DNA from: Amphibalanus amphitrite
Taxonomy: Eukaryota; Arthropoda; Thecostraca; Balanomorpha; Balanidae
Direction: 5' to 3'
DNA: 64,000 nucleotides
NCBI RefSeq assembly: GCF_019059575.1
Contig: NW_024881785.1
Coordinates: 310,001-374,000, forward strand
The notes beneath the pieces were generated by a model that saw nothing but the letters and a program-made list of their open reading frames with translations, did not search any database and was not told the origin of the DNA. Below, one piece after another: positions 3,554 through 62,746 of this stretch. Each line of letters opens with the position of its first letter. Within the stretch, counting starts at the first letter, position 1. A program made the position numbers and the translations under genes.

Positions 3554-3565
3554 TGCGACCGCCAC

Positions 3566-5491: not shown

Positions 5492-8400
5492 GTGAGTACT
5501 CATCAGCTGCAGACACACATCATATACCTGCATTATCAGTAACTGGTACACATTGACTCACATTATACGAGGGCACACCAGCTACGCACCAATACACGCA
5601 TCCAACTCACATTTCCGCACTTATACATACATACATCCAACATAAGATCATCAATGCACACACAGGTTAGGCATATTTAACGTTCGATGCCCAAACCTTT
5701 TTTATCGTTCCGGGTAGCCTTTCGCTAATATTTCGTCTCGGACTCTCGAACAAAATAAAGTGGAGCCAAAATACTATAGGAACAACGCAAGAGTGATCAA
5801 CTATCCATTTAACAGATCGACTCGGTCAGGGCAACATTAAAGCTGCAATGCACTGCTATAATTACGTACTTCTAGTTATTCAGTAACTCCTGCAATGATA
5901 GCGCAAAACGATGCTGGGGAATGTGGTAGGAACGTTGACTCTTGACATTTGATAATGAAACCAACCGTCTGTTTGTTGAACGATAAACCCCTTTTTGTTT
6001 ATAGCTGGAGCTGGCATGTTCCAGGATAAATAATAAACATGCACTGCATGTGACCGTACCAGGCGAGTAGCCGCCAGACATGCAGAGCAGGTGGCGTGCT
6101 CCCAACCAGCTGACAATCTGGGTGCAGTTGGTGTGTGCTTACTGCTCAGGATGATTTGCTAACCCTCGCGGGCCCGGGGGGGGCGTTTTTCGCCCCCCCC
6201 CCCCTGGCGAATATTTGCGATAGCTCCCGAACGCTTAGGGATAGGAAAGCGAAACTTTTAGTACCTTTTCTCCCATCAATTTGACATCTTCTGAAGCAAA
6301 AAATTTGGACCTAGCCCCCTTGATGACGTCACAAGGTCCATTTTTCTAGACCTCTGCACGGCAAACTTCGGCGTCACAGACTCAAACTTCAAATAGCTGC
6401 TAAAAACAGAGTTTTGGAGATAAAGACAAATTACGAGCACGGCTGTGTAGCGTTTGACATAGAGAAAAATAGAAAAATAGTTTTGATGACCTGAGGTCAG
6501 AGGTCAGGTCGACGACCCCGAAATGTGGTTTTAGTTTTTCGCAAATAACTTCGACAAAAATGGTCCTAGAGCTTCGGCAGTGGTACCATCGCATTCGCCT
6601 TGTCAAACCGCGTCGAATGATATATATTTTGTTCGGAAAGGTCAAGTTTTATGTTGACCTCATGTGACCTCGAATGACCTCTGGTTGACCTTGACACATG
6701 AAAGGTCGTTTCTGATGGATTTGTACCCGCTGATCACGAATCTGGCATCTATTTTCCTCTAAGCCTTCATTTAGAGCTTACGGATGGCAAAATTGTCTTA
6801 CTTATTATTACTAACTTGAATTAGTGAAATAGCCTCTAGCAGGGATACTCTTCAGTGACCTTGACCTTTGAGCAGCCTTGTATCGTAAGATGAACCACAA
6901 ATAGGGAACTGATAAGCCTCAAAACATTTCAAAACATCTTGGAAGTTAGCACGCAAGATGTGCGAAAAAGTGCCAAGTTTGAGGTCAATTTTGAGCGTGA
7001 CCTTGACCTTGATCTTTGATTTTGAGCACATTTTCGAAATCCTCAGATGCTCTTCTTTCGTTTGACACCCAATTTTGCCGGTTTGATGCAGCCTGCCGTC
7101 CTCTAGAAGGCTTACTTTGAGATCACTACACATGTGCCGGTTTTTGCCTTTGACCTTGACCTCTGACCTTGAAAATTGACCCGAGGTGAAAAATTTTAGG
7201 TGCTTTAGAATCGTCTCGTAAGGACCTTTCGTTTTGGTATAGCTTTTGTTTCCGTAGCTCCCTTATTTACGGAGTTAGACAGGGGGGGGGGCGAAAAACG
7301 CCCCCCCCCCCGGGCTGCGGTGGTTGGGATTACCCCCCGGGCCCGGCCGGGTTAAAGTTTAAACATTGACATATGTTAATAAGTCATAAGCATCTGTATT
7401 TTTCTTTAAAGTAATTATGATCCATTTATATCATTCGATTCAAGCCTCCTTCGTGGTTTTGCGTGGTCAACCAAAGCGTTGAATAACGTTAAACGAATTA
7501 ATGTGGAATTAATGAAGTCTATTCGTGCCCACCGCAGTTTCTTAGGCACACATTGCTTTCCTTGCATGCTGCCTACGTGCATACGAAATGAAGCACGATG
7601 AAAATCCTGGCGATCCCCAACAGCTCACGTTAGTATTCGTGTGTCTGTCTTAAGCATCCCGCGATCATTGGCTTACTCTGCCGAGTGATTTAAAACGTAT
7701 GTAATTATAATATACACTCTCAGATCCTTTGGAGCATAATTGAAGGCGACGTGCGAGCCTGGATTCATGCAGAGGAGTGAGCCCCGCCTTGTTAAGCGGC
7801 TGTCGCCTCCGCTCGTGGCCTAATAGTCCTTTACTCCTCAGAGCACTCATACTCAGAGTTCGTTTCGCATGGGCACGCGAGCCGAGCGTGCAAATGCCAC
7901 GCCGCTTCCTTTGCGAGCCGCTTAGTGAACTCTTATGCACATTGCATATATAGCTGTGGGCGGATTTTGATGTCTTTTTTATGTCTTTTTTTAATAAACT
8001 AACGCAGACATGCTATGATTTTGTCCTTATTACCTTCAATATGAAATAGGCGGGCGCATGACGCAAATTTTATTTTTGAAGGCAGGAGCACGAAGAAACG
8101 GAGCGACAAATGTTGAGTATCCATGACAGGTTGGATGATGATGTAAATAATAAACCAAATTATCTCATTTGCACAGTGATCAAGGTTCCATGAACCGAAA
8201 GCTTTGTGTGTCTTTTTGAATATATTTGAATGCATTTGTAATAATTTGGTTTATTATTTACATCATCATCCAAACGGAGCGACGTCTCAAAGGTAATGTT
8301 CCAAATGAGGCATTCTACTCTGTAGAAATCTCGTTTTTGGGGTTAGGAGCCTTTCAAGTTAGACCCCTATTTTTTGTGTGTGCAAAAACATGCTACGGAA

Positions 8401-11400
8401 TATTTACATATGTAGGCATAAAGGTTATTATAGCACAGGGGCGAATAACACATGACACAATAGTCAAGGGCAAATACAAGCAAACTCACATGGACACATG
8501 GAACATACTATCACATCGCCCCACGTGGTTTTAGGAAATGTTCATTGGATCTGCATGGGTCTGTTAGAAATTATTTGTAATAACTTCTATTAGGTATGTA
8601 ACTTATTAGTTTGCATGTTTATTGATGCATGTAGAAATGCGAATGTTATGATGCATGCACTTTGCTTCTGTTCGCGAGTTGAGGTTACAACCCGTTGGTC
8701 GAATGGTGCTGTCAGATATACCTACTGCTAATGGTGCCCCCCCCCCCCCTAGCCTGCCAATGAACATTAGAGCATGTTAAGTTGCTGCCGCTACCCTGAC
8801 CTGTGAATGCTGCCCCCACTCCCCTCACCCTGGTGTAGCTCCGACTGACCGTCCGGACCGTCCGGCCGGACCGTCCGGCTGCCGTCCGGCCGGACCGTCC
8901 GGTGACCGCCTCATCCCGCAGCAGCCCGCTGGTTTTCAGACACCTGCGCACCCAGTCGCCGTCGCAGCGCTCGCTGAGGAACCGCTTCATCCGACACTCG
9001 CTGTACGCGTGGGGCGTACCGCTGCTGATGACCTGCCTGCTGGCCTTCTTCAACTATGTGCCCTACGACGTCATCCCGAAGGGCGCCATCCTGCGACCCG
9101 ACCTCGGAGAGCGCAAGTGTTTCCTCTCGGGTGAGTTCACCGTGGAGTTAGGTCACCAGGGGGCTGCGGGAATCAGGGCAACATTCACTGTGGATTTAAG
9201 TTATTCTATCATTAACTTCTGCAGTAACGATTATATGTTTCTTCAGGTAAATTTTTATCGTATCTTATATTTGCTAATCAATTTCATGAACATTGACCTT
9301 AGAAATACCTGTTTTTTCTTAATTGTTACAGAGAATAAAAACATGTAGGAACAATTAATTATAAATGCATCGTACGCAGCAAACGCTGAAACTAAAAGTC
9401 AAAGCTTCAAGAAGTGGATTCGTATGCAATCGAATCTTAAAAATGCTTATTTTTTAGTATTAGCTTCGAAACACAGAGTTTCATAAAAGACTCATGCGCC
9501 CACCACGCTGTTCAGATCCTGTGGTCATCGCCATGAGTGGTCAGAATGAGCTGACCTATGAGGGAACTCCCGTGGGGAGTGCCACCCGTCACGCACCCTC
9601 GTCATGCTCCGGTATGCCGGCTGCGTTTCTACCACAATCTCTCCGTTCGATGGCGACGGATGCGTTTCCTGTCTCTCCGTCTGCAGTGCGCCGTGCAGGC
9701 TGGCAGAGTTTCCGGCGCGGCGGTAGCAGGACCAGCACCGCTCTGACGTCCATCAGGACAGACTAGATGGCTGCGGCCGAGATGTGGCGTTGTGACCGAC
9801 ACTCCGGTATCGGAGCCTTTTCCGGTCGGTGGCGTGCCTCGGTGCGCCTCTGGGTCCGACTCAGACTCTGGGCCTTATAGTCTCCGCAGGGGCGGATCCA
9901 GCGACGCCAGACAGGAGGGCATGCCAGACAACCATGCTTATAGACATCTGTAGGGGAGAGTGGGGCAAAGCGGCCACCCTAACGCTTCTCACGATGCCAA
10001 CGCTTGATTTTTAAACTTGGAAAGATCCTTTCTATACCAATGTCGTACTGACTTAAAAGTCACCGTCCAGCACAAGAAGAAGATCTATTCTGCTCTCCTC
10101 TACACCTTCCAGCCAACTAAACTCACAATCCCCCTCCTGGCACATCCACAGCTCGCAGACACACATCTCACATCATCACCAACCAATCGCGCTGTCATAC
10201 GTCATATATCTCACATCATAACCAGCCAATCATGCTCCCATACGTCATGCCCGGCCCAGCTACTTGCAGGGTGTAACTCGGCCCTGCCGGCATCAGATGC
10301 CGGCGGCTATGACCAACGCTGGGTCACCGGTTCACAGCTCGACGCTGAAGCTGACTCACACTTATACGGCTCACATTCATCCTTGCGTCACGCTACATCA
10401 CCCCCTGGTTCTGAAGAACCACATTACTCTACATGTTACATGTCATTCAATCAACGCATCAACTACATCCTCTGGCACACCATCGCCATATCTTTCCGGC
10501 TCTCTTCGAACACGCGTACCACGCCGCAGCGTCGCAGGCACGAACGTTTCACTCTCGTCTGCAGACACATCGGACCCGGTCGGTGGATCGGGGTCCGGGG
10601 ACTGAGCAACGCTGGGCGGCCGCGTGTCCGACTCCGTCACATCACTCGGAGCTGGCGACACACACACGCCATCACACTCGCTGTCATCAGACCACTCCAC
10701 CGTTGGCGCTCGCAGAGCCCCTGGCCTCGGACATTCAGGGACGGTCAACCGATGTCGGAGGTTTCGCACATGTCGTGGGACATTATCGACTTCGATTGTC
10801 TGGGCCGAAACGACGCCTGTCACAATACCCTCGTCTGACTTTACAAAACATCGGTCGCCCCGCCGCCGAACCCACACCTTGTCCCCTACCTGGTATACAC
10901 CGGGTTTCTTCAGCGGCAGGGCGTCACCAGGCTCGTCTGAGGTTCTGCGGGGCGTCACGTCAACGTCTCGGCCAGGGTGTCGAAGCACCCCGTTGATTGG
11001 AGCTGTGGCCGGGTCACTGCCATCCTTCGGTGTCACGTTGTACCGATGGACTGCTTCAGCAACGGAGCAGGACTGCCGGGCCACCATCACTTTGATGGTA
11101 CGATGATGGCGCTCGACGATGCCGTTCCCGCCGGGCTCGTAGGCAGCGCGGAACCGGATGGATACGTCCCAGCGAGCCGCGAACGCTAACATGACCCGGC
11201 CACGGAACTCTGTCGCATTGTCCGTGAGTATTTCCGCCGGGGCTCCACGCTCTAGAAACACGTTCTCCAGCTCACTCACAATCTCCAGAGCTCCTGCCCG
11301 GCGAAGCCGTCGCCATATGGCGTACCTCGACGGCCCGCAGTCCACCAGCGTCAGGTATGGGTGGCCGTGCACGTGGGTGACATCCATGGCCAGGCGATCC

Positions 11401-14400
11401 CACGTGCGTTCTGTTCCGAGTGACCCACCGGGCCAGCGCTCCGGCGCCGGGTCAATCGAGGCACACGTCTGGCATCGTCTGACCACGTCTCGCACAGCTG
11501 GTTTTGACACCCGCCTCACCCCCAGCTCACGTCGGGCGTACCACAACGTTCTCCTCACTCCTTGGTGACCGATGTTTTCGTGGATGGTGCGGATGTCACT
11601 CGCTGAGGCACTTGTGATGGCAGCGACAGCCACCGGTTGTGCTTTGGACGAATCAGTGGTTGGCTGGTCGGCAGTCTGCAGCCAGGCGTTGGGCACCCGC
11701 GTCACCTCATCAGCACGGTTGACCGCTGACGCGACCAGCTCGATAGTGACCTCCAGTTCGTACTCGATGACGAGCTGACGGAAAACAGCCACGCGCCGTC
11801 GGATAAGCATTTCGGACTGCGCCTTGGTTCGCAGCCTTGCCTTACCCGACAGCGCGTCACTCAGCCAGCGGTGCACCGTCACCGAGTCTGTCCGGAGCGT
11901 CAGGCGACGGAAGCCCCATGCTACCGCCAGGTTGACACCGTTGAGAGCGGCATCCAGTTCTGAGATATTGATGTGCACGTCCCTCTCCGATTCGGCACGC
12001 AGCCAGGACGCGTCCTCGATGATGGCGCCCGTGTCAGGGTCAGTGAGCACGACACCGCGGGCGATGGAGCTGGCGTCGGTCCACACCACGACGCTCGTCC
12101 CTGTCACACACCACTGGCCGCGTGCCGGGTCACATGCTCGAAACCGCCGTGACACCTCATCCACCTCACGTTGTAGCTCCTCGCTGACGATCGGAGTGTC
12201 CCAGTCCGGGCTGAGGCGGTTGGCAGTCCGCTTCATCCATGCAGCGGCCGGCCGCAGCCAGCCTGCGACCGGCACATGAGATGTCAGCTGGCCGGCCCAC
12301 GCGAAGACAGATCGCCGCGTTAGCACGGGTGGAGCCTGCGTTGGTGACTCCCCGTCCCTACTCCACTGGAGTGCCGGCCCGTCGCTCTCGGCGACACGAA
12401 GGCCCAGCATACGTGCACCGGTCGCGACCCGCTCCGGCGGCTTGCATGTGAGCCCGAATCGAGCGAAGTGCTCGGCAACCTCATCAGCCGAGACCACCGC
12501 TTCGTTGACCAGCAGATCATCGGCGTAAGGCAGCACTGCCTCTGCCAACCCGGGGCTCTGTGCGAGCACCTTCCTGACCACAGCCTTCATGATCAGAGGC
12601 GCGATACTGAGCCCAAAGCCGACCCTGGTCAGGCAGTACCGCCGCCCTTGCACGATGACTGTCTGGTACGGCCACAGGGCCGGGTCCACACGAAGCTGAA
12701 GAAAAGCTTTCTTCAGATCCAGGACAGCGACCCGGCGTCCGTGACGTCGCCACCTTCGCAGCTCTTCCACGCAGACGTCAGCGTCGGCTGTGTGACGTGT
12801 CAGGTGTTGATTGAGTTCCCGATAATCTAACACCGGCCGCACCTTGTCCTTCGCTGCCTGAGTAACCACCATCAACGGGATCAATCCCTGTGCGGGACCG
12901 TACATCGTCTCATCGTATTCGCGCAGCCAGCCCTCACTAATCCACAGCGCCAGCTCTGCATCGAATTTTTCACGCGCACAACTCGGCACACCGTACTGAG
13001 CTATCGAGTTTCCAAGCGGGGGCGGAGCCACGCCACCGGCCCATTTCCAACGGACTGTCCACACATCATCGAACACAGCCGTGAAGTCAGTCTCGTCAAT
13101 CCTTAGCTCCGGCTCCGTGTCGACCGCTCGACACACCTCCCGCTCCGGCGGGACCTCACGCTGCACCACAGCAGCCGTGTCGACCGCACGACACACCTCC
13201 CGCTCCGGCGGGGCCTCACGCTGCACCACAGTAGCCGTGTCGACCGCTCGACACACCTCCCGCTCCGGCGGGACCTCACGCTGCACCACAGCAGCCGTGT
13301 CAACCGCTCGACACACCTCCCGCTCCGGCGGGGCCTCACGCTGCACCACAGCAGCCGTGTCGACCGCTCGACACACCTCCCGCTCCGGCGGGGCCTCACG
13401 CTGCACCACAGCAGCCGTGTCGACGCTCGCAACTGGGTTGTCGCTCCCGAAGCGAACGGATCCTCCACTTACACTCACGCCCTGCAGGGCGTCAATGCCG
13501 GTCATGCCCAGCAACACGTCTACGCCCAGCAACCGGGCCGGTACGACGACCGCCCGCACACTCACTGTCGCCCCGCGCACTCCAAGGCTGACCACAGCCC
13601 GCCCACAGCACAGCACCGGGCTGTCGTTGACAGCGACCAAGCTGGCGTCACTCCGCTCCCAGCAGGACACCATGCCCTTCCACACCACTGTCTCGCTGCA
13701 CCCTGTGTCGACGAGTGCTCGGCACTTGCGCCCATTTACATTGATGTCGATGATGGGGGCTCTTGGGTCACTGCGGCAGCTGGCGACGGCGGAGCCCGTG
13801 GCGCTGATGTAGCGCCGTCGCCGTGCCCGTTTGGGCAGAGCCGGGCGATGTGGCCTACCTGGTTACAGGTCCAACACCGCAGTGGTGGACGGCGACCCGT
13901 CCCTCTGGCTCCCCGCTGCTGCTGTACATATGATGGCGGCGGCTGGACGACAGCCACCGATGCAGTCGCTCTCTCCCTGGCCGCCATCGCCAACGTTGAC
14001 CTAGCGACGGCGACGGCTCGCTCCAAGGAGAGAGTTTCATCTCCAGCACTGTTACGTACTGTTAGCCGCACCTCCGGCGGCAGACCTTGCAGGAAGTGCG
14101 TCGTCATCACTTCGTTGGACACTGAACCTATGAGGGATATCAGCCGCTTGACTGATCCCAGGTAGGCATCCACAGACTCGCCCGGTTGTAGACGGCGGTG
14201 ATACAGCTCATACATAGCCGCGTCGGGTCCCAATGCAAATGCACGATGCAGTTTTTGGCGGACGATTGCAGCATCCCGCTGCTCGGTGGAGGAGAGGGTG
14301 GCCCACACCTCGTACGCCTGGTCCCTCAGGCGTGTGGGTATGACAGCGGCCAGTGACACACGACGCAGGGCACACAGCTGTGTCGCCTGCTCCAGCCATC

Positions 14401-17400
14401 TGACGACGTCACCGCTGCCGTCGAACTCCGGTATTGCCCGCAGATCGAATGCAGGCGCAGGAAACTCTGGTTCCATGGTATTGGTACCAGCTACCGGTGC
14501 ACCACTGCCCTCTTCTACGTCAGACATAATCACAACACTTAGTCGAGAAGGCCGAAATAGCTTGTCGTACTGACTTAAAAGTCACCGTCCAGCACAAGAA
14601 GAAGATCTATTCTGCTCTCCTCTACACCTTCCAGCCAACTAAACTCACAATCCCCCTCCTGGCACATCCACAGCTCGCAGACACACATCTCACATCATCA
14701 CCAACCAATCGCGCTGTCATACGTCATATATCTCACATCATAACCAGCCAATCATGCTCCCATACGTCATGCCCGGCCCAGCTACTTGCAGGGTGTAACT
14801 CGGCCCTGCCGGCATCAGATGCCGGCGGCTATGACCAACGCTGGGTCACCGGTTCACAGCTCGACGCTGAAGCTGACTCACACTTATACGGCTCACATTC
14901 ATCCTTGCGTCACGCTACAACCAATGTGATCCCTATTAAATTGCCTTTTATTTCAACTGCGTTTTATTTCCAAAGGCGTTCGCATATGGAAGATATTGAC
15001 AAAACTTTAAACCTATGCATATTGGCCACTTTGCCCCATACCCTGGGGCAAAGCGGCCACCGGCATCTTCTCAAGTCCCGATATGAGGAACAAAATATTT
15101 GCCTCATGTACGACTAGGGTATTAGATGGTGACAAGGTTTAAGCGAGGATGGATGTTTACTTTATCATCTTCCACCTGTAGGTAAACAAAAAAAGGATTT
15201 TCATGAAAAAAACATTTAATTGCATTATTTGGTAACTCATGCAACTGAAAAGTGGCCAAGATGAATGCATGAGGACACATTTGAATATAAATAATGCTGT
15301 TTATCCAGATGGAAACAACTTATGGCAAATTGGGGGGTGGCCACTTTGCCCCGGCCACTTTGCCCCGCGCATACCGTCCGAGACAAAAATATTCCAGCTT
15401 AGCTATTAGTGGAGTAAAAAGCATTAAAATTGGTATGATACATATACGATAACCATGCAATGCATGGACAAGAGCGCTTATAAAAATTCCAAACGGTTAT
15501 GGAATAACATAACATTTAAAAAATGTAAACATAGTTGGTAACCTGGCAAGAAAGGCTTTTCTGTGTTTCACAGAACAATGGTGATGGGCCTGAAACCCCG
15601 GTCTGGCTCATTCGAACGACCGTGAAGAGAAGTATAATTGGAAACCATAAATTGGAACTGACGCCAGCTATGAAGGGCTAAAACGATGGGTGGCCGCTTT
15701 GCCCCGGGTGGCCGCTTTGCCCCACTCTCCCCTACTCTGTAGTCCATGTGTAGTCGGGGCCGCGTCCACGATCTGAATTCCATGTGGCTACCTGATTTGC
15801 GCCTTATTTGTCTCCGTTACCTGGCTAGTCGAGTAAGGATGATAATTTCACGCCGTTCCACGAGAGACAACATGACACTACACAAGACTACCCTTCACAC
15901 ATTGCCCAATGGCCACCGTCCTTCTCAAGGTCATGAGAGTACCGACACGTGAACGGGGCAGACAGAGCGAGCAGATACCATGCCACCTGTTTCTGGTCGT
16001 CCCTGGTAAAGAGCCCGTGGGGAGGGGAGGGTGGAGGGAGTCACCTGAACCTGCCTGCCGGCGGGCAGACGGGCGGTCTGGTCTGGTCGCGGGGCCGGCC
16101 GTCTGATCTGGTCGCGGGACCGGCCGCCGGAGCCAGTGGGGCCGGTCTCCAAATATGCGGGGATGGGAGCTGGAGAGGTGGGAGGGGGACCAGTTCTTCG
16201 GAGGCTGCCGGCGATAGGCATACGACATGCATAAGTTCTATTTTGTTAGATCATGTATGAACTATGCGTGAGTGAGGTCACTCTTCTTGGATTATTTTTA
16301 GTCTATAATACTCGACTCATGCATTGAGGAGTCGAGTACCTAATATTGGCACGCATGTGGTGGTGTCAAATCTGTTAATTTAATGTAAAACTGTCATTGA
16401 ACGAGCCATTGACTGTTTTAGGCGCGCCCCTAGCTCGGATGTCGGGCATTGTCCGCCAACACGGCGCAATAGCTCGGTATGCGAGCTGCAGGTCACTTGT
16501 CGGATATTATCCGGACACAGACTAAGATTACCTCTGTCTGAAAGCTGCCCATGATTACCTGTGTTAACAAATTTTTGCCTTGAATAGAATGATCTAAGAC
16601 CGTTTCCTTTATCTTGTGATCTTTCGAAAGCTGCTTCCACCGCTGGCTACATTGCTATAGTTATCGAGCCTTTCCGTGTGCACCGCAGTCACGACCCGTG
16701 GAGATTCTAGCGCGTGGGTCGGTCAGAAACCGGTCCGAGCTTTAATAACAAAGCTTGCAAATGGTTCACATGGATAATATGAACAATATGATAAAATGGG
16801 CGTTATGTAAGGATGACATACCTAGGTAAGCAGTAAACCGGTCTTTGACATGTTCAAAGAGCTGGCACAACGATACTGAAAAAGTAACCAATAATGTAAA
16901 TAACCGTTAGAGGACATATATGAATGTCGTGCATATGTAGTTTTAGCGTATTTTATACTTATTGTAAGGAGTTAAGCGTTTAGCGCTCGCTTATTTCTTG
17001 TAATCCCTTTTGCACAGTTATGCCCATAATGAACTGTCAAACCGGTTATGTTTGTCTGATCTGTAACTTTTATAAGAACTTTTTCGTGTTGACACATTGT
17101 AGTTGCAGTTGCTGATGAGTTCTTATGGACATACCATTCTTTTATAAGGGACACACCGCCTTTGAGAGACATGCCATTTCATTGATGGACGAGGTACATA
17201 TAAAACGTAACAACGGCTCGGAATATCCTTTACTGTAACAACGGCTCGGAATATCCTTTGCTGTCACGCATTATCCAGTAGGTACTGTAATTACGTATGT
17301 CCGCGGGAATTCCCCTATCTTATGTTTCCGAGCTTGATGGCTGTATTTCCCTGTACCGTGTTACCTGCTTATACTTTTTTCTAGAAATGTTGCAGATTGA

Positions 17401-23209: not shown

Positions 23210-24213
23210 TTAACCCTATTCCTGGCGGGGGGGGCCTCAGGAGCCCCCCCCTGAGTTTTTTTTTGTTTTTTTCTCCCAAACGCGTTGAGCTAGGAAGCTC
23301 AAATTTTCTGACTTTTCCTAAAAGGCTTCTACGCAACATGTCTGAAAATTTTGAGTTGATCTGACCTCAGGTCAGGTCACCAGAGGCGGTTTGGTGACCC
23401 TACCTCAGAAAAGTTTGCAATCACGCCAGAGCTAGAGTTTTTGACCGATCAATTTCTTCTCTTCAGGCTTTAGTTAGGGTACCAGTATGTGCAATTTGTA
23501 TATCTCGGAATTTTGATATCGGTGACCTAAGGTCAGGTCAGTTTCGCGACCTCCCCATTATAAGTCAATGGGGGGAAAATCAACTCCCTGTTTTTACCAC
23601 TAAAACGGGTCGGAATGGCCCCATATACCATACATGACTTCATATACGATCAACCTTCACTACCTTGAGGTCTGTTTTGCTGTTGGGCAGCTGTGAGGTC
23701 ATGTGACGTCATCAAAGGTCACCAAAGGTTTTTGGCCAATAACTCCGTACAGGAACAAGATACAGACGCGTGGATGGTCTCATTGTGTTCAGCTCGTCAA
23801 GACGCATCGAATGATATACATGATGACCTCGAGGTCACGTGACCTGAGGTCAACCTTTGGCCTTGACCTTTCGAGGTCAACATATATATATCATTCGATG
23901 CGGATTGACGAGAGGATCACGATGATGCCCTTAGTTTGTTCCTATCTTGACTAATTCGAAAGTTATTCGAGAAAAACTCTCTCCATATCTAGCGCCGCCA
24001 TTTTGACTTTTTCGACCCCTGTGACGTCATCTTTGACCTGACCTGAAAATGACCTTTGTAAAAATTGTAGATCTTGACCGTGCGTATCCGATGCCGTTTA
24101 CCGTTTGTCGCTGCGATGTGTAGTTTTTGAGATCTGAAGGGGGGGGGGGCCGAATCGCCCCCCCCCCCCCGCCAGTTTCTTGTCCCGGCGCAGCCCGCCA
24201 GGAATAGGGTTAA
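23210..24213 (+). mobile_element. TTAA element, family B
   Basis: TTAACCCTATTCCTGGCGGG at the left is repeated in inverse orientation at the right end (a 20-bp perfect terminal inverted repeat), with TTAA at both outer edges. Length 1,004 bp. Subterminal hairpins: G-run, CCTCAGGAG, C-run on the left; G-run, CCGAATCG, C-run on the right. The interior is rich in AGGTCA/TGACCT. It contains a 620-bp core (23492-24112) almost identical to that of family E (28857-29473), although the termini differ. Confidence 0.88.
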
Positions 24214-24219
24214 TTTAGC

Positions 24220-28568: not shown

Positions 28569-29571
28569 CTATCCCGCGCACCGACGGGGGGGCGGATATC
28601 CGCCCCCTGAGGTTTTTCGCGAATAGCGGGAAAACCGCGGCGCGTAGCGCCGCGAAATTTGGTATGACTATAACCTCATCAATTTTACACATGGTGTGCA
28701 AGTTTGAACCTCCTACCTTTTAAGGTCAGGTCATCAGGTCACTTTGAATGACCCAACCTCAAGTCACTTTTTTGCAACTTTGTCACCGTGCCAGAGCTAC
28801 AGTAGATGTCGGAGGCCTTTGAAAGTCGCAGGATATTATTAGGTCATTAGTAGCTACAATTTGTATATCTCGGAATTTTGATATCGGTGACCTAAGGTCA
28901 GGTCAATTTCGCGACCTCCCCATTATAAGTCAATGGGGGAAAAATCAACTCCCTGTTTTTACCACTAAAATGGGTCGGAATGGCCCCATATACCATACAT
29001 GACTTCATATACGATCAACCTTCACTACCTTGAGGTCTGTTTTGCTGTTGGGCAGCTGTGAGGTCATGTGACGTCATCAAAGGTCACCAAAGGTTTTTGG
29101 CCAATAACTCCGTACAGGAACAAGATACAGACGCGTGGATGGTCTCATTGTGTTTAGCTCGTCAAGACGCATCGAATGATATACATGATGACCTCGAGGT
29201 CACGTGACCTGAGGTCAACCTTTGACCTTGACCTTTCGAGGTCAACATATATATCATTCGATGCGGATTGACAAGAGAATCACGATGATGCCCTTAGTTT
29301 GTTCCTATCTTGACTAATTCGAAAGTTATTCGAGAAAAACTCTCCATATCTAGCGCCGCCATTTTGACTTTTTCGACCCCTGTGACGTCATCTTTGACCT
29401 GACCTGAAAATGACCTTTGTAAAAATTGTAGATCTTGGCCGTGCGTATCCGATGCCGTTTACCGCTTGTCGCTATCTTGCTTCGTTCTCGAGATCTCAGG
29501 GGGGCGGTCATCCGCCCCCCCCCCCCCGTCGGTGCGAAGTTGGCGCAGACCCCCGTCGGTGCGCGGGTTAA
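28569..29571 (+). mobile_element. TTAA element, family E copy 1
   Basis: The right end reads back as TTAACCCGCGCACCGACGGG; the left end CTATCCCGCGCACCGACGG has lost the exact TTAA. 1,003 bp. The left hairpin has the perfect palindrome GGCGGATATCCGCC inside G- and C-runs. Next to it is CGCGGCGCGTAGCGCCGCG. The core 28857-29473 is shared with family B. Inside the core, GCATCGAATGATATA recurs in inverse as TATATCATTCGATGC about 100 bp away, with dense AGGTCA sites between. Confidence 0.87.
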
Positions 29572-44830: not shown

Positions 44831-44950
44831 CTCCCAGATATGGCATTCAAGTCCACAGAATAGATAGTTGATTTCTGGTCACATAAGCTACGTTTCTATG
44901 ACACGTCTAAATCGATTTAACGATGTTTCATGTGCGTTTTTCTCGCATAG

Positions 44951-45925: not shown

Positions 45926-46663
45926 ATTCAACTTATGCAAAAATGAGCATACATATAATTTTAGCGAACACTGAAACCTATATATTCAATTTTAAATGAT
46001 GTCTATTAAATGATGTAGATGGATGGGGCAGATCCATTTTATCAAATCGGCTCAACTTGTACATACCATGGAAACGTAGTGATAGTCTATCGTTTATCAG
46101 TGAGCCATTGCAGCATTCAAAGGAGCCGGTTGAACGTATTTATATGTCCACGAAACAGACACTCTAAAACAACTATTGCTGATTTTCAGTTAGTTTTCAT
46201 CACCGGACATGTTTACCGAAAAACGCATATGCCAAATTACACTATGCAACAAAAAATGAAACATTTTCTGTTCCTGGAAAGCGACCGAGTTTTTCTTATT
46301 CATTGGGTCCTATTATAACCAAAATGGGCATTAGTTTTGATCCTAACCCGCGCACCGACGGGGGTCTGCGCCAACTTCGCACCGACGCGACGGGGGGGGG
46401 GCGGATGACCGCCCCCCCCCCTGAGATCTCGAGAACGAAGCAAGATAGCGACAAGCGGTAAACGGCATCGGATGCGCACGGCCAAGATCTACAATTTTTA
46501 CTAAGGTCATTTTCAGGTCAGGTCAAAGATGACGTCACAGGGGTCGAAAAAGTCAAAATGGCGGCGCTAGATATGGAGAGTTTTTCTCGAATAACTTTCG
46601 AATTAGTCAAGATAGGAACAAACTAAGGGCATCATCGTGATCCTCTCGTCAATCCGCATCGAA

Positions 46664-46859
<196 letters not shown>

Positions 46860-46886
46860 GAATAGTTCGGAAGCAGGTTCTCTTTT

Positions 46887-49146
<2,260 letters not shown>

Positions 49147-49176
49147 GTATTCGTGAAAAACTGCTTCCCAACTTCA

Positions 49177-49179
<3 letters not shown>

Positions 49180-49211
<32 letters not shown>
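49180..49211. repeat. (TA)n microsatellite
   Basis: Short TA run joining the Penelope-like unit to the resumed family E sequence (GTTGACCTCGAAAGG). Confidence 0.95.
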
Positions 49212-49215
<4 letters not shown>

Positions 49216-50849
49216 ACCTCGAAAGGTCAAGGTCAAAGGTTGACCTCAGGTCACGTGACCTCGAGGTCATCATGTATATCATTCGATGCGTCTTGACGAG
49301 CTGAACACAATGAGACCATCCACGCGTCTGTATCTTGTTCCTGTACGGAGTTATTGGCCAAAAACCTTTGGTGACCTTTGATGACGTCACATGACCTCAC
49401 AGCTGCCCAACAGCAAAACAGACCTCAAGGTAGTGAAGGTTGATCGTGCATGAAGTCATGTATGGTATATGGGGCCATTCCGACCCGTTTTAGTGGTAAA
49501 AACAGGGAGTTGATTTTTCCCCCATTGACTTATAATGGGGAGGTCGCGAAATTGACCTGACCTTAGGTCACCGATATCAAAATTCCGAGATATACAAATT
49601 GTAGCTACTAATGACCTAATAATATCCTGCGACTTTCAAAGGCCTCCGACATTTACTGTAGCTCTGGCACGGTGACAAAGTTGCAAAAAAGTGACTTGAG
49701 GTTGGGTCATTAAAGTGACCTGGTGACCGGAGCTTAAGGGTGCGTTTCACGCGTAACGCTATGAGAAACGTTTTTCGTAAATATCTAGAGCATCGTTGCT
49801 TCGATTGCCTTCGTTTTTGGATATGTTATGAAGGACGTTAACCTCGTCATCACAGAGTGGTTACCGTTGTTCTGCAATCCACATATACTGAGCAATTTAG
49901 ACAAACATATTGCAAAATCAAAATTTCAAACGAATAGAACTCAATAACGGATTGTCGTACGACTGTGATGTTTGCAGTTTTTGACTGACGAAGTCAAGGA
50001 AAACATTTCCTAGCAAGCCTTTTTTCAAATTTTGTACTATGTTTTGCATAATACAATTTTCATTTTGCAGTGCATTGCATGAAAGCCATGACAAAAAATT
50101 CAAAAATGTGGCTGCTAGGAATCATAAAGACATCGATTCTCTACACAATCCTGTAGAGTTAATTATCATTGCATGCATTACTATGCAGTTCTATTCATTT
50201 GAAAGTCATTGCACAGCTAGTTCATAAAATCGCCGAGAGATGTCTCTGGCTGTGTGGCCCGCGCGTTTCGACGGTCCCCTCCGCCCGTCACTCAGCGGCG
50301 TTTGTTGACACAGTGTCACACCCATTAGTTACGGCGCTCCGCTGGCGTTCGGCCACCGTCGAGGTGCTCTGAACCCTCCCTGCTAAGTTTCACTGTGACC
50401 AGACGGGTCGGAGACTCATCCCACGATCTATCCATGAGCGGCGCCCAGCCAGGCGTCTCCTATCGCGCGCCTCTCACTCTTGATCGGGAGTACGCCGGGA
50501 AGAGCTTGTGAGAAACTTGTGAGAAACACAATTTTGAAAGATGTCACAAGTTTGTGTGAGTGGTATTACGAACAGCGAACAGGTATATTTTGACAATAGG
50601 TATTTGACCTGACCTGGGCAGTCCGTAGCCCGTATTTGACCTGACCTGGGCAGTCCGTACTGAACATAAATAATGAAAATAACCAGCATGAGCAATGCCT
50701 ACAAATTCCATGGAGACATGGACCCTGAGTGACGTGAGACCACATATCAGTTCGACTGTTATGTCAAAACCCTCGCCCTGGCAGAGTATTTTTCATACCC
50801 CTCCCCCGGCGTTTCGAAATTAAGCGTCGTAGCTCGCTGTATTGACGTA

Positions 50850-53190
50850 GGCAGACACTCCACATACACTGTGGCTATTCCGTGTCTAAAGTCATTGCGA
50901 GTAAAAAAAAAAAAACATACGTCAGGGTAAAAGACAATAAAAAGTCAAATCACACACCTATACATATACCAGACACTCGCCACGCACACAGACGCACACG
51001 CTCCATATGCAACCACACTTCCGTCAATCACAGCCACTCGTCAGTCCATCAGAAGAACGCCTTCACTGCTCTCTTGAAACTGCCGGGATCGAGGTCTAAA
51101 AGGGCAGTCCGCTTAAAGCGCGGTCGCTTGGTATGAAAAGGCACGCTGCCCAGCCGCAGTGCGTGTAACCGGTGGCCGTAGGCGGCGGTCGTTCCGGGTG
51201 GTGCGGTCACCACTGGCCCGCGACCCCGCGTTCGTGGTGAACAGCGAGGCGAGGACGGTCGGCTCACCGCGCGCAATGGCACCGCGCGCGACGGTCACCG
51301 CTGCGACCCGGTACATGTCAGAGGCCGATGTGAGGTGCAGGTCATCCCGCGCGCGAGACACGTGGTCGTACTTTTTGAGGCCGGTAATAACTCTTGTAGC
51401 GAAGTTAATAATTTTGAGAAGTCTGGTACAGTTGTCGGCAGAACAGTTTCCGTAAACGGATATGCAGTATCTCACGCGCGAGATGACCAACCCCTCAACA
51501 ATAGTTTTCAGTGCGTGCTGCGGGAGGAAATGCCTCAAGTGGCGGAGACCGATCAGGAGGCCGGTACAGTGGCGAACCACGTCACTGACGTGTGCGTCCC
51601 AACTCAAGTGACGGTCAAATAGCACGCCTAGGTTTTTAACTGTCCGGCTCTCCTGGACGGTCCCGCCACCGACACGTACGCTGACAGGGGGGAGGTTACG
51701 GGTGTTCTGACGGGTGCCGAGGAGGAGGATTTCAGTTTTGGATGCGTTGAGTTTTAAACCATGGGCATGGAACCAAGCAGACAAAGCGGAAAGGGTAGAT
51801 TCCATGCGTTGGATGAGGTCAGGAAGATTGGCTTTGACATCGGACATCAGGATTTGGGTGTCGTCAGCGTACTGGGTCACATGGGCGTCCGGCGCGTGTA
51901 GGCTGAGGTCGTTGGAGAAGATGGTGAATAGGAGAGGACCAAGGACGGATCCCTGGAACACTCCCGTGGTGATAGGAAGGGGATTCGAGACCACTCTGGT
52001 GCCGGAAGGAGAGGAGATAGAGACTGACTGGGTGTGACCATGGAGGTACGAAGAAAACCAGGATGTATCAATGTTATATTGCTGGAGTTTGTTAAGGAGC
52101 CGAGAGTGCGGAATGGCGTCAAAACATTTGCTAAGATCCAAGAGGCATAGGAGGGATAGGTGACTGCGGTCCATGTTGGAAAAAATGCTGTTAGTAACAG
52201 ATAGCAGAGCGGTCTCGGTTGAATGGTGGGGGCGGAAGCCGTGTTGGGATGAGGATAGGAGGTGATTGTCGGACATGTAGGCATACAGCTGACGCTGCAC
52301 CACACGTTCGACAATCTTGGCTATGACAGGAACTATGGATATAGGGCGGTAATTGGAGGGTAATGACGGGTCACCGGACTTGAAAATAGGATGCACCAGG
52401 GAGTGTTTCCATGAATCAGGGATGTCGCATCTGGTAAGACATGAGTTAATGATGTGGAGAAGGACGGGGCTGATGGCGTCAAAACATAGGATTAGGATCC
52501 GGATACAAATTCCGTCAGGCCCACACACACCGGAACGCTTCATGGAGAACATTACCTCCCGCAGGCCGGCCAGCGTAGTGCCGCGCACGCGGAAGCCGCA
52601 GGCGCCCACACGCGGGAGGCGACACGGGACCGCGGGCGGGGGCCCAAGGCTGGCCAGCTCATCAGCGATTCGAGAACCGACACCAACAAAGTACGCGTTT
52701 ATCTCGTCAGGTGTAGCGGCAGGAATACAGGGGGCACTGCTACGCTTTCCGGCGATAATTGGGCGGATCACACGGTACAGTGAGCTGCTGCCATGCTCAC
52801 GGAGCTTAGCCTCAATGTCCGCCCTACAGTCACGCCGGATCGCCGACCTGACCCTCCTATCTAGTTCGCGAAAGGTCGGCGATCTCCCCTCGCGGCGCAG
52901 CACACCCCTCCGCTGTGACATGAGATTAAGAGTCGCCGCGGTGACAGCCGGCGCAGTGGGGTTCCGGATGGTAGCGACTCTAGTCGGGGCATGCCTATCT
53001 AAAACAGATAAGAAGCGATCCGTAAAATAAGACCACATAAAAGAAACCGGACGACTGCTAAAAACGCATGACCAGTCTACATTGTACAAATCACTAAACA
53101 ATGCATCACGCTGAATACGTTTGAGCGGCCTCAAACGCAATCGGGACGGTTTTCTAACACGTTTCGGTAAAGATAAAAGCAAGCGGACAA
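50850..53190 (-). mobile_element. 5'-truncated non-LTR retrotransposon (LINE)
   Basis: Boundaries are inferred from the family L copy that it splits. Only the second ORF from the linker after the endonuclease onward is present; the endonuclease and ORF1 are missing, as expected for incomplete reverse transcription. About 260 bp of 3' UTR lies between 50850 and 51113. No clear poly-A tail at the 3' end. Confidence 0.75.
51113..53182 (-). CDS. LINE reverse transcriptase (5'-truncated ORF2)
   Basis: This protein would copy LINE RNA at the nicked target. The 689-codon frame is open throughout. Reverse transcriptase motifs in order: GVCGPDGICIRILI; SLVHPIFKSGDPSLPSNYRP with ISIV; QHGFRPHHSTETALL; LLDLSKCFDAIPHSRLL; TGVFQGSVLGPLLF; catalytic QYADDTQILM; LKLNASKTEILLLG; LGVLFDRHLSWDAHV. 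The pattern fits the jockey/CR1 group of LINEs; the clade is not settled. The start is not a true start: the frame begins in the region after the missing endonuclease. The copy cannot move by itself. The intact frame suggests a young insertion. Confidence 0.9.
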   Translation of the reverse strand: MLLSLPKRVRKPSRLRLRPLKRIQRDALFSDLYNVDWSCVFSSRPVSFMWSYFTDRFLSVLDRHAPTRVATIRNPTAPAVTAATLNLMSQRRGVLRREGRSPTFRELDRRVRSAIRRDCRADIEAKLREHGSSSLYRVIRPIIAGKRSSAPCIPAATPDEINAYFVGVGSRIADELASLGPPPAVPCRLPRVGACGFRVRGTTLAGLREVMFSMKRSGVCGPDGICIRILILCFDAISPVLLHIINSCLTRCDIPDSWKHSLVHPIFKSGDPSLPSNYRPISIVPVIAKIVERVVQRQLYAYMSDNHLLSSSQHGFRPHHSTETALLSVTNSIFSNMDRSHLSLLCLLDLSKCFDAIPHSRLLNKLQQYNIDTSWFSSYLHGHTQSVSISSPSGTRVVSNPLPITTGVFQGSVLGPLLFTIFSNDLSLHAPDAHVTQYADDTQILMSDVKANLPDLIQRMESTLSALSAWFHAHGLKLNASKTEILLLGTRQNTRNLPPVSVRVGGGTVQESRTVKNLGVLFDRHLSWDAHVSDVVRHCTGLLIGLRHLRHFLPQHALKTIVEGLVISRVRYCISVYGNCSADNCTRLLKIINFATRVITGLKKYDHVSRARDDLHLTSASDMYRVAAVTVARGAIARGEPTVLASLFTTNAGSRASGDRTTRNDRRLRPPVTRTAAGQRAFSYQATAL

Positions 53191-53638
53191 GCGGAAGCGC
53201 TTCGCAACAAAGAGCAGTCGATTGCTCTCAACGAGTACCTACTCGCGATTGGTGGTACATTTTTTACCCTAATTTAATATTTAACCCAGTTATGGCAGGT
53301 CAAAGGTCAAATTTCGGGGAAAGCTGCAATTATCCAAATTACTTAGCCAATATTGGCGAATTTATGAACGATAGCGACATGAAACCTTCCCTTCATGACC
53401 GTGTTTCTCAACGAATTAGCAACAAAATGATGTATAGTTGATTGAATTTCAGTCAAAATAGCGTCTCTAGAGATAGTTTTTCACGTATCACTTTTGAAGT
53501 AATAAAGCTAGGCAAAAACTGCATAATAGCAATTAGCATCATCGTAGTCCTCTCTCGTAATTTCGCCTCGTAGCATATATGTGTTGACTTTGAAAGGTCA
53601 TGGTCAAAGATTTTAGATTGACCTCGGATCACATAACC

Positions 53639-55949: not shown

Positions 55950-56525
55950 TGAACCAAACACTATGAATGTGACTGAAGCTGCTTTCCTGAACCTCATTCA
56001 TTATTCCTTATGAATGATTATTCCTTATAGCTTTTTCATTATTCCGGTTTCTCCCTATCCGTGTGTGTCGGCGCGGGTTCGGCCCAATGTGGTTCGACTG
56101 AGAGCATGACATCTGGTCCTTTCCGCTCGGCCTGACCGGCGCGGCGGACCCGTGCCACTCCTCCCCGAACTCGCGGGGCGCGGATGGGGAGGGGCGGCCC
56201 GGCAGTCCAACCCCTCTGCGCTGACAGATGGATGGACAGGGGAAATGTGATACTTGTCCTGTGACAACAAACCGGCGTTCAGCGCTAGGGCCATCTACTG
56301 GTCTAGAAACGTATCTCTATGTCGGCAAGATCCTCGCCAGGTGGTGTAAAGGTCGCGTGAAACGCACCCTTAAAAGGTAGGAGGTTCAAACCTGCACACC
56401 ATTTGTAAAATTGATGAGGTTATAGTCATACCAAATTTCGCGGCGCTACGCGCCGCGGTTTTCCCGCTATTCGCGAAAAACCTCAGGGGGGGGGGCGGAT
56501 ATCCGCCCCCCCGTCGGTGCGCGGG

Positions 56526-60016: not shown

Positions 60017-62746
60017 CTGAAAATAGTATATAAATAGTATATAAGTTTAACCCTCGCGGGCCCGGAGGGGACGTTTTTCGCCCCCCCCCCCCCTGGCGAA
60101 TATTTGCGATAGCTCCCGAACGCTTAGGGATAGGAAAGCGAAACTTTCAGTACCTTTTCTCCCATCAATTTGACATCTTCTGAAGTAAAAAATTTGGACC
60201 TAGCCCCCTTGATGACATCACAAGGTCCATTTTTCTAGACCCTTGCACGGCAAACTTCGGCGTCACAGACGCAAACTTCAAATAGCTGCTAAAAATAGAG
60301 TTTTAGAGATAAAGACAAATTACGAGAACGGTTGTGTAGCGTTTGACCTAGAGAAAAACAGAAAAATAGTTTTGGTGACCTGAGGTCAGAGGTCAGGTCA
60401 ACGACCCCCAGCTGTGGTTTTAGTTTTTCGCAAATAACTTCGACAAAAATGGTCCTAGAGCTACGGCAGTGGTACCATCGCATTCGCCTTGTCAAGCCGC
60501 GTCAAATGATATATATTTTGTTAGGAAAAGGTCAAGTTTTATGTTGACCTCATGTGACCTCAAATGACCTCTGGTTGACCTTGACACATGAAAGGTCGTT
60601 TATGATGGATTTGTACCCGCTGATCACGAATCTGGCGTCTATTTTCCTCTAAGCCTTCATTTAGAGCTTCCGGATGGCAAAATTGTCTTATTTACTATTA
60701 CTAACTTGAATTAGTGAAATAGCCTCTAGCAGGGATACTCTTCTGTGACCTTGACCTTTGAGCAGCCTTGTATCGTAAGATGAACCACAAATAGGGAACT
60801 GAGAAGCCTCAAAACATTTCAAAACACCTTGAAAGTTAGCACGCAAGATGTGCGAAAAAGTGCCAAGTTTGAGGTCAATTTTGAGCGTGACCTTGACCTT
60901 GACCTTTGATTTTGAGCACATTTTCAGAAACCTCAGATTCTCTTCTTTCGTTTGACACCCAATTTTGCCGGTTTGATGCAGCCTGCCGTCCTCTAGAAGG
61001 CTTACTTTGAGATCACTACACATGTGCCGGTTTTTGCCTTTGACCTTGACCTCTGACCTTTAAAATTTACCTGAAGTCAAAAATTTAGATGCATTAGAAT
61101 CGTCTCGTAAGGACCTTTCGTTTGGCATCGCTTTTGTTTCCGTAGCTCCCTTATTTACGGAGTTAGACAGGGGGGGGGGCGAAAAACGCCCCCCCGGGCT
61201 GCGGTGGTTGGGATTACCCCCGGGCCCGGCCGGGCTAAAGATTGCAATTACGGGCCTGTATACTACTTCACAGGACTTTAATTAGGTAGGTAGACAGATT
61301 GCAGTTCCATGCCCATGTTTTGAAACGCTACCACATTTTGTGATCACGATGTGAAACAAGGGACCAAATTTTCATTCAACCTGAAAAATCAGATAAAATG
61401 TTATACTATGTAGAATAACGGTATCATCTGACTAAAAAAAATATCCTTGCATCTCCGAAGCTATAGGTACATACCTATAAGTTCCGAGCCCGCAGTGGAC
61501 ATGCCCGCAATTAGGTACCTACCTACCTACCGCAGGTATCTTTGATTTTATGCATTTTTTACCCTCGCCGGTACAGGGGGTTGATGCAACCCCTCTAAGG
61601 TTATTCGCGAATTACTCGTGTAAAAAGCGGCCGATCGCGACGAAACTTTCAGTACCCTCGGATTGATCAATTTTACACCTACCTTGAAAATTTCATTACT
61701 CTGACCCAAATGACCTTTGACCTGTGACCTACTTTCCGAGACCACGTTTGGCCGGAATCGTGATTCGGCGTATGTCGGCTCGCATTAGCCGCGCGTTCGC
61801 AAGCTTTTCGTGGTTTTAAAGGTTCAAACATGTGATTAGATGTTTCTCCCATGCATAAGGGTGGATGTCAAGGTCACCTGAAGGTCAGGTCAGGTCATTG
61901 ACCTTTGGTGACCTCGGCTCACTTTTTCGAGTTTTACATGTTTCTAGGCTAGTTTTTGGAGCTGATTTCGAATTTAGCAACCAGTTGAACATTTACAAAG
62001 TAGTTTTGGTGCCTTCGTAACATGTTACGGTGATGTCAGAGGCGGTTGACACGTATTACGAATACCCGTCACGACCCCTGCCGGTTGACCTGACCTTACC
62101 TGACCCGACCTGGTCTAAATGCTTAAAGACATCATCTCTGATCAAAACTAGCACGATATTCATGATCAGCACCCCGGAAAACTCCATGGCAGCCACACTT
62201 TACGACTTTCTCAAATCTAACAGGTTCCGATTTTCCCGATTTTCGGGTCATTGACCTGACCTGGAAGGTCACCCGATGACCTAGGACCTTAAAATTGGAT
62301 ATCATGGATATCATCGGCTTCCTCTCGTGACGGGCAACACGCTCGTTTTTTTCCGCGAAGCTCTAGCTCGATCAGGGGCTAAACGCGAGGGGGTGTCGTA
62401 TCCCCCCCCCCTTGTGGCCGTCGAAGGACACAAAATGGCCTGTGCCGGCGAGGGTTAAATGTTACTGAGCCCTAAGAACCTTAGACTATTAGTCAAGGGA
62501 AGAAGTCAGTGATGAAGATACTAGATAGGTACATACGTTGTCTCGTACTAAGCAAAGAAACACTTGTAGGAGCGCAATGAGTGAGGCATGCGTGTGACTT
62601 ACTTTCTTTCTTTTCCTTTTCCTCTGCCTTTTTCTTCGCCTTTGGTTTGCGTTTCCGGGTCTGTATGCCGTCTTTCCTCATTGACAGAGGACGTCGGATG
62701 CCATGAAGCTTGAAATACAGCCCGCACGCGTTGCATACCGGTTCAC
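59703..62746 (-). CDS. GATA-type transcription factor, last two exons
   Basis: GATA factors bind WGATAR sites in the nucleus and set cell fates (blood, gut, heart, epidermis). Exon 62603-62746 encodes the second half of the C-terminal zinc finger ([20 protein letters not shown], with the last two Cys ligands) and the basic tail [20 protein letters not shown]. It is preceded by an acceptor (TTCAG) exactly where GATA genes split the finger. Exon 59703-60016 follows in phase (donor GTAAGT, acceptor TTTTCAG) and gives a Ser/Ala-rich C-terminus ending MSLDMHTPP. The finger's first half and the rest of the protein lie beyond the right edge. The tail fits pannier/GATAe-type (GATA4/5/6 class) better than the GATA1/2/3 class. 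The 2.6-kb intron holds elements A3 and D3. Confidence 0.9.
60047..61238 (+). mobile_element. TTAA element, family A copy 3
   Basis: Left end TTAACCCTCGCGGGCCCGGA; right end in inverse TTAGCCCGGCCGGGCCCGGG. 1,192 bp, full-length match to copies at 6159 and 36084. It begins only 31 bp from the GATA exon, inside the last intron. Confidence 0.87.
61558..62458 (-). mobile_element. TTAA element, family D copy 3 (inverse)
   Basis: Right end GTGCCGGCGAGGGTTAA and left end TTTACCCTCGCCGGTACAGG (one base off TTAA). About 900 bp. Hairpins: GGGGG, TTGATGCAA, CCCC at left; GGGGG, TGTCGTAT, C-run at right. Internal sequence matches copy D1 in inverse, including the run ending GCTCGCATTAGCCGCGCG. It lies in the GATA intron. 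Confidence 0.82.
62603..62746 (-). CDS. GATA factor exon with C-terminal half of zinc finger
   Basis: 144 bp. Encodes [40 protein letters not shown] and AEEKEKKE. The acidic/basic Lys-Glu tail may be part of the nuclear localisation signal. The donor is GTAAGT at 62602. Confidence 0.94.

Follow-up and report, generated by a model that had tools for sequence, protein, structure and literature searches.

Palindrome-bearing elements in the window and the genome

The window analysed here is a stretch of 64,000 nucleotides from the barnacle Amphibalanus amphitrite (contig NW_024881785.1, positions 310,001 to 374,000), and coordinates below are counted from its first letter. It holds many TTAA-flanked elements that carry, just inside their terminal repeats, a run of G, a short core and a run of C. 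We consider it very probable that these elements belong to the clade of the Trichoplusia ni (T. ni) piggyBac transposon, mostly as miniature inverted-repeat transposable elements (MITEs) derived by internal deletion, and that the G-run/core/C-run is the internal palindrome of this clade for the cysteine-rich domain (CRD) of the transposase, a binding that we infer by analogy with the T. ni system.

An earlier note on this DNA, made from the sequence alone, had described TTAACCC elements with a G-run, a loop and a C-run inside their ends, and these proved to be real. With a palindrome defined as G5+, 3-16 nt and C5+, and a TTAACCC-like end (0-1 mismatch) sought no more than 70 bp away, a direct scan found 21 non-redundant palindromes in the window, 18 of them linked to such an end; the G-run of all 18 begins at bp 14-16 or 40-46 after the TTAA. 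One of the 18, at 34890 (TTAAGCC), probably reflects chance, and the palindromes lacking such an end lie at 3472, 3519 and 28586, the last being the decayed left end of a family D copy. When loci L001-L039 are added to the window, a TTAACCC-like end accompanies 39 of 49 palindromes and is absent from 10, with onsets at bp 14-17 in 17 cases, at bp 40-46 in 21 and at bp 21 in one; random window positions give 0.65% for the short class and 1.7% for the long class. A search of the genome (807.6 Mb, 2644 contigs) for TTAACCC-N{0,30}-G8, along the lines that the earlier note had proposed, returned 19,110 matches on the forward strand, where the reversed pattern gave 377; on the reverse strand, nested matches swell the counts (75,046 against 114). 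Among the 100 matches listed, the run lies at bp 14-16 in 83 of the 94 forward-strand rows, and those rows include 41 distinct 13-bp termini, some of them one base apart. Rfam gave no match at gathering scores.

Elements of the window were assigned to families by comparison with genomic copies, from which the percent identities below derive; onset is the position of the G-run counted from the TTAA.

6159..7355, + strand: family A MITE, copy 1, from left end 6159 to right end 7355; palindromes 6176-6204 and 7282-7311, both with core CGTTTTTCG; onsets 14 and 41; 93.8% to genomic A copy L074
23210..24213, + strand: family B MITE; palindromes 23227-23251 and 24139-24170, with differing cores CCTCAGGAG and CGATTCGG; onsets 14 and 40; 96.4% to the B copy nested in L102
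25088..25914, - strand: family C MITE, copy 1; right end 25088, left end 25914 with its runs lost; ends read; 82-89% to L049
28570..29571, + strand: family D MITE, copy 1; palindromes 28586 on the left, at a decayed terminus, and 29499-29527 on the right; right onset 41; 96.9% to L054
36084..37282, + strand: family A MITE, copy 2; right palindrome 37212-37239; right onset 40; 91.0% to L074
39466..41880, + strand: family F element with nested insertions; palindromes 39483-39512 and 41797-41834; core TCGGATCCGA; onsets 14 and 41; right terminus TCAACCC; another F right end in L014
39807..40722, + strand: family G MITE lying within F; palindromes 39826-39853 and 40646-40675, both with core TGGTTGCCA; onsets 16 and 44; 97.2% to L075
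41408..41717, - strand: family C fragment with right end, inside F; TTAACCCTCG at 41408; 91% to L049 over 41474-41717
46344..49737, - strand: family D, copy 2, interrupted by ~2.5 kb of other DNA between its pieces 46344-46673 and 49205-49737; palindrome of the right end 46392-46421, onset 46; pieces 94.4% and 97.6% to L054
53639..54842, + strand: family J MITE; cores CTATTTATAG and CTATTCATAG; onsets 14 and 40; 98.3% to L076
56368..56529, - strand: family D left-end fragment (162 bp); palindrome 56486-56512, core CGGATATCCG; onset 14; 95.1% to L054
56526..57479, - strand: element H, an L032/L061-family interior with other termini; cores TTGGTGCAA (left) and TTGGTGCGA (right); onsets 15 and 42; interior 92% to L061 over 900 bp; terminus close to L057
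60047..61238, + strand: family A MITE, copy 3; right palindrome 61170-61195; onsets 17 and 40; 93.4% to L074
~61558..62458, + strand: family C MITE, copy 3; right palindrome from 62389; onsets 15 and 44; 90.3% to L049

Element H and the D fragment beside it share one TTAA. Among the families that the earlier note had distinguished, A (three copies), B, D (three copies), F, G and J stand, while its L turned out to be part of C copy 3 and its E was not recognised as distinct from C. The tally confirmed by genomic comparison is A three times, B, C three times, D three times (complete, insertion-split and fragment), G and J, to which H adds an element that had not been named.

Transposases, masters and the layout of the ends

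The piggyBac class that had been proposed for these elements is borne out by their TTAA target, their CCC termini and the PF13843 transposases that lie between ends of this kind. TTAA stands at both ends of paired elements, and termini read CCC throughout with T, G or A as the fourth base, a CC(C/T)T-like form. The earlier note had held that copies without TTAA duplications would speak against its reading; two paralogous empty sites, both outside the window, show the duplication. At one, the C MITE L049 is continuous where the element C778 carries a nested MITE, and the flanks share 4 bp, which are TTAA; at the other, where a piggyBat-type element in L020 was set against L053, the overlap is 5 bp.

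A PF13843 profile search of the genome gave 116 scored places out of 232 candidates, and C-termini were read for 77 of the 116. A CRD motif scan of 37 transposase-hit loci typed 5 as T. ni-like and 26 as piggyBat-like, leaving 6 that the motif did not assign; two further sets of 20 transposase loci held 3 and 4 of T. ni type, several being fragments without an in-frame CRD. The T. ni-type loci resolve into five families, with fragments of the same clade (L125 and L098/L099/L107/L108) standing outside the five. The motif CxxC..CxxC..CxxH..CxxC is present in all five, their proteins are 31-62% identical, and PF13843 matched L035 at 2.4e-69 and L028 at 2.3e-71, with further matches in C33, C257, C702 and C412.

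All five families lie between G/C-run ends, and the transposase with matching ends that the earlier note had suggested looking for exists in five forms. The L032 transposase sits between such ends, and its relative L035 is 99.2% identical to it over 3985 bp, a match that stops at TTAA to within 4 bp. L100 and L101, 99.95% identical over 4102 bp, represent an element at L100:833-5555 with a left end known from L100 only, and the L102 element occupies 10-5982 with a B MITE nested at 476-1470. C412 (L126/L123) extends from a left end at L126:85 (TTAACAC) to a right end at L123:6267, its frame broken by an insertion, and C778 (L038/L028/L039) has its right end at L038:1625, its left end at L039:1500 (CTAACCC), the L028 transposase inside and one more MITE nested near the right end. 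Each family has a left onset at bp 14-15 and a right onset at bp 41-42, so that a palindromic internal repeat is found at both ends with an asymmetric shift of 27 bp in five of five. A second left end of L035's family, at L035:1-318, abuts the L035 element head to head, with one TTAA in common.

Comparison with PDB entries places these proteins closer to piggyBac than to piggyBat. L035 matched piggyBac (6x67/6x68) at 2.2e-78, including the Cys/His pairs of the CRD, and piggyBat (9c0f) at 3.4e-30 without coverage of the CRD; the corresponding values were 1.3e-56 and 4.8e-21 for L100, and 4.3e-66 and 3.6e-18 for L102, where the piggyBac match stops short of the CRD. For L018 and L033 the order is reversed and piggyBat is the best match. 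Moreover, G/C-run ends occur in five of five families with a T. ni-type CRD and in none of six piggyBat-type families (L001, L002, L006, L011, L014 and L027), whose outermost 96 bp lack G4..C4 on both sides, a division expected once in 462 arrangements; L011, which the motif did not assign, was typed by a C-terminus equal to one matched in a later scan. That a T. ni-type CRD would go with G/C-run ends had been predicted before the ends of L100/L101 and L102 were read, and both fit. The piggyBat-type element at L001:412-3192 has at one end a palindrome free of G/C runs, GTGTCCTCATATGAGGACAC, which is perfect over 20 bp and has its centre at bp 24.5.

The abundant transposase elements of the genome have TTAACCCATTAGTGCC-like ends without G/C runs, and were rejected as movers of these MITEs, having a piggyBat-type CRD and no such palindromes. 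The L020 transposase, at first a candidate for G/C-run ends, belongs to a piggyBat-type element nested in a MITE. In the window, a Pfam scan of 9 of the 62 open reading frames (ORFs) of at least 110 aa found no piggyBac transposase.

Four MITEs could be paired with masters by collinearity: A with C412, C with C778, L061 with L032 and L053 with L102. Positions 1-256 of A correspond to L126, 241-342 to L123:2-103 and 346-1201 to L123:5407-6267, and the 5.3 kb of C412 between the A-matching parts holds the transposase. A, C, L053 and L061 are short, non-coding and present in many copies with the ends of their masters, and this collinearity shows them, as judged from sequence, to have arisen by internal deletion. 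L123 had been considered an A MITE beside a transposase, a reading set aside for that of an A master, since collinear A matches flank the gene and the left end lies in L126. L123 and L124 present the same A-master locus on two contigs, 99.7% identical over 6418 bp, and are perhaps two haplotypes kept apart in the assembly.

The asymmetric layout extends to the MITEs. From the genome-wide match list, 40 places picked for differing termini were fetched, and scripted pairing across all data gave 38 pairs matched by terminal inverted repeat, of which 36 combine a short and a long spacer, two are short at both ends and none is long at both. Representatives were picked on the opening 13 bp of the left end, some being variants within one family; among the 25, the inward offset of the right palindrome relative to the left is 27 bp in 15, 26 bp in 3 and 28 bp in 3 (26-28 bp in 21 of 25), the remaining offsets being 24 bp in 1, 29 bp in 1 and 30 bp in 2; at least two of the 25 are false pairings, namely an F left end joined to a G right end (offset 30) and L079 joined to the right end of the L061 element (offset 27). 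Many elements have a second copy of the inner portion of their terminal repeat immediately ahead of the right palindrome, as in D (CGCACCGAC, 9 of 10 bp alike); in G and L038 the recurrence is weak in ungapped comparison (1/10 and 2/10 bp), the copy being shifted by one base. The earlier note had found the loops similar at both ends of an element. The layouts differ, with a short spacer at one end and a long one at the other, and the cores are mostly alike, though not in B. Just inside the palindromes, L040-L079 and the window elements share motifs common to many families, GGTTTTTCGCGAATA-like behind the left palindrome and AGATCTCGAGAAC-like behind the right, which could reflect shared descent or an additional binding site.

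Cores, runs and breaks between ends and interiors

Cores are symmetric, with 61% of positions pairing against a shuffled mean of 28% and maximum of 37%, and the cores at the two ends of an element resemble each other (0.405 against a permuted mean of -0.214 and maximum of 0.068). The half-sites beside the runs look steadier than the middle, as in CGG-ATAT-CCG and CGG-ATGA-CCG of D or TTG-TAT-CAA and TTG-TTA-CGA of L032. TTG...CAA cores are found in L028 and L032, whose CRDs are 54% identical, and CCA...TGG cores in L100 and L102 (imperfect in L102), whose proteins are 36% and CRDs 42% identical; the CRD alignment score of the latter pair, 124, is the highest outside L028/L035. C412 has the cores CGTTTTTGG and CGTTTTTCG (CG-TTTTT-CG). 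This pattern fits a CRD code, as far as can be read from sequence, and five points cannot prove one. Of the suggestion that the loops serve as family tags, it holds that they are palindromic, mostly alike at both ends, and that transposases with related CRDs tend to share the edges of their loops (n=5); B and L047 are exceptions.

The runs vary in length. In copies that are about 99% identical, left-end runs read G12/C10, G10/C10 and G12/C8, and a family G copy in L019 has a core with just two G. Run lengths are not reliable to the base, and either free slippage or assembly miscount is at work, which the data cannot separate.

In several cases the outer and inner parts of an end appear to have separate histories. 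Across the first 50 bp inward of the right palindrome, the B copy at L102:476 and the D copy ending at window position 29571 show 100% identity, and each further 50 bp, up to 300, gives 96-98%, while outside the palindrome (terminal repeat and spacer) they are 50% alike, to be set beside 0.56 for shuffled sequence, 0.63 for random right-end pairs, and 97% and 100% for same-family controls. In the window B copy the break lies about 25-30 bp deeper in the element, which also explains why only 76% of the first inner 50 bp agree between the two B copies. Comparable breaks are seen in H/L061 and among C, L046 and L078; in H/L061 and L046/L038 the interiors match less closely and unevenly (72-98% per 50 bp). 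In a change-point scan of right-end pairs with different termini, run lengths being equalised, 10 of 13 had their break in the palindrome or no more than 6 bp from it, and 3 had it on the inner side, these being the comparisons of the window B copy with D copies. As B and D each have more than one copy on different contigs, the break is not a single assembly join. Conversion or template switching at the common G/C runs would explain B/D, and fast divergence of the ends alone would not.

We hypothesize, tentatively and with more doubt than confidence, that the palindromes form an exchangeable address system in which end modules (terminal repeat, spacer and CRD palindrome) swap at the runs, switching the transposase in one step, the runs being kept as both binding site and recombination handle. 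Coral CMITEs, in which differing terminal repeats stand on a conserved interior according to the available text (PMC2872659), offer a precedent. Several observations speak against such swapping: the 13 pairs are non-independent, represent about 4-5 family pairs and were found post hoc; no left-end pair passed the change-point scan; and pairs with similar interiors mostly have similar ends (33 of 47 on the right, 37 of 40 on the left), as expected within families. On the left, the L073/L049 case comes from identity comparison, without change-point support, and one of three apparent left-end swap pairs was discarded as a mere A variant.

The window also holds other repeats and ORFs. A long terminal repeat retrotransposon-like unit spans 10041-14862, its 300-nt direct repeats, 100% alike, at 10041 and 14563 enclosing minus-strand ORFs that match protease, reverse transcriptase and zinc-knuckle domains, and a 704-aa ORF with a reverse transcriptase domain, resembling a long interspersed nuclear element, lies at 51116-53227 on the minus strand. 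The open frame at 30373-31101, also on the minus strand, has a lipocalin match and, of the 9 ORFs scanned, is perhaps the sole host gene. Within the sequence that interrupts D copy 2, nested inverted repeats (158 nt, 100%; 188 nt, 99%) span 46886-49150, and an ORF with a GIY-YIG match lies at 48431-49120. A TTAA-flanked element of 513 bp with ends TTAAAGGGACTATCCC lies at 41964-42476; it is Kolobok-like in look, and we take it to be unrelated to the G/C-run elements.

Interpretation and comparison with known systems

Both ends of the T. ni piggyBac have an internal repeat, a 19-bp palindrome on which the transposase CRD binds as a dimer, and the two repeats are placed asymmetrically relative to the tips, shifted by 28 bp from one end to the other (PMC7351741); PMC11707139 likewise describes identical 19-bp palindromes in an asymmetric arrangement, and a piggyBat that differs in CRD fold and end layout. 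The earlier note had thought such hairpins foreign to piggyBac, which, given these CRD-bound palindromes, fails for the palindromes and may hold for the G/C runs. By analogy, a transposase dimer would hold the terminal ~16 bp while two C-terminal zinc domains, the CRDs, dimerise on the palindrome. At the left end the palindrome follows the terminal repeat without a gap, starting at bp 14-16, and at the right end some 27 extra bp, in many families including a second copy of the inner repeat, place it at bp 40-44; such an asymmetry would allow the two ends to be distinguished and a left/right pair to be assembled for cleavage. The family core would decide which CRD, and hence which transposase, uses an element. 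The MITEs, mostly ~0.8-1.2 kb, would be moved in trans by the transposases of far rarer 4-6.6 kb relatives. The long runs may have grown out of the half-sites as expansions prone to slippage. CRD binding, mobilisation in trans, this origin of the runs and the mechanism of the swap are all steps that we infer.

Several observations weigh against this interpretation. A candidate partner end lies within 1.46 kb in only 25 of the 40 places fetched, and five resolved transposase families, with 77 of 116 C-termini read, face dozens of terminus types. The two ends of B (CCTCAGGAG, CGATTCGG) and of L047 have unlike cores, and CRD identity alone does not part the core classes, being 44% each for L035/L100 and L102/C412 against 42% for L100/L102. 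Moreover, the run-bearing palindromes exceed the 17-19 bp of T. ni piggyBac, and their variable runs move the centre by several bp.

It is quite possible, with chances not far from even, that the core is functional and the runs are not, having grown as neutral homopolymers from short G/C half-sites while the CRD reads few bp. The variation of run length between ~99% identical copies and the two-G core of the L019 copy are in keeping with neutral growth, yet runs are present at both ends of all five families, despite proteins only 31-62% identical, and a uniform drift of that kind is not obvious. A signal in the single-strand hairpin itself, as DNA or RNA, seems highly improbable. G/C arms would be very stable and the cores are short enough to serve as loops; however, many cores are palindromic to the centre (TCGGATCCGA, CGGATATCCG, TAAATTTTA, TGTTTGAACA), the excess of pairing over shuffled cores (61% against 28%) is as for a dimer site, and the position coincides with the piggyBac CRD site. 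We also know of no single-strand stage at that point in cut-and-paste elements. The evidence favours a double-stranded dimer site over a single-strand hairpin.

That the runs are assembly or sequencing artefacts, which the earlier note had named as grounds for dismissal, is extremely unlikely: homopolymers are the weak spot of long reads, and the two contigs of the A-master locus differ in run length, but the runs recur on many contigs, at dozens of termini and at fixed distances from TTAA with family-specific cores, even if exact lengths may err. Kolobok and Sola2 likewise target TTAA, and membership in one of these superfamilies is scarcely conceivable, as five complete elements with these ends hold piggyBac transposases; no search aimed at Kolobok or Sola genes was made.

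With a core sequence of its own in each family, this genome appears to carry a natural set of address labels for transposons. How piggyBac recognizes its own ends has so far rested on structures of very few elements, and here dozens of terminus types and five transposase/palindrome pairs allow CRD and core to be compared within one genome. A CRD recognition code would be open to direct binding assay and could yield mutually blind piggyBac systems for genome engineering. Module swap at the runs, if true, would show how MITEs may change their master elements, a point that the available text on coral CMITEs leaves open (PMC2872659). A search of the open-access literature, with subscription journals and repeat databases outside it, found nothing on long G/C tracts at piggyBac ends or on core variety within one genome.

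Coral CMITEs resemble the barnacle elements as TTAA piggyBac-type MITEs with shared interiors and differing terminal repeats between families, and one of them carries the interior type of another family; they differ in being ~100 bp, and the consulted part of the report mentions no CRD link, no breakpoint at a palindrome and no G/C-run palindromes (PMC2872659). The piggyBat of Myotis lucifugus (PDB 9c0f) shares the superfamily and has CRD dimers on palindromes, in contrast to the elements described here showing another CRD fold and an end layout in which three palindromes are reported at one end, with none recognised at its partner (PMC11707139); the barnacle's own piggyBat-type elements lack G/C runs. 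The closest likeness is to T. ni piggyBac (PDB 6x67, 6x68), which in the part of PMC7351741 consulted has the same TTAA target, CCC termini and DDE_Tnp_1_7 transposase, a left palindrome at bp 17-33 and a right end that repeats bp 7-35 of the left with a 28-bp shift, here 27 bp. The cysteine/histidine pattern of the CRD aligns throughout, while the loop between its first two cysteine pairs is longer in the barnacle, where the palindromes consist of G/C runs of ~5-15 around an 8-10 bp core, begin at bp 14-16 and come in many core types. Palindromes as such are known in piggyBac; what is unusual here is the long G/C runs, seen in a large and varied set of elements.

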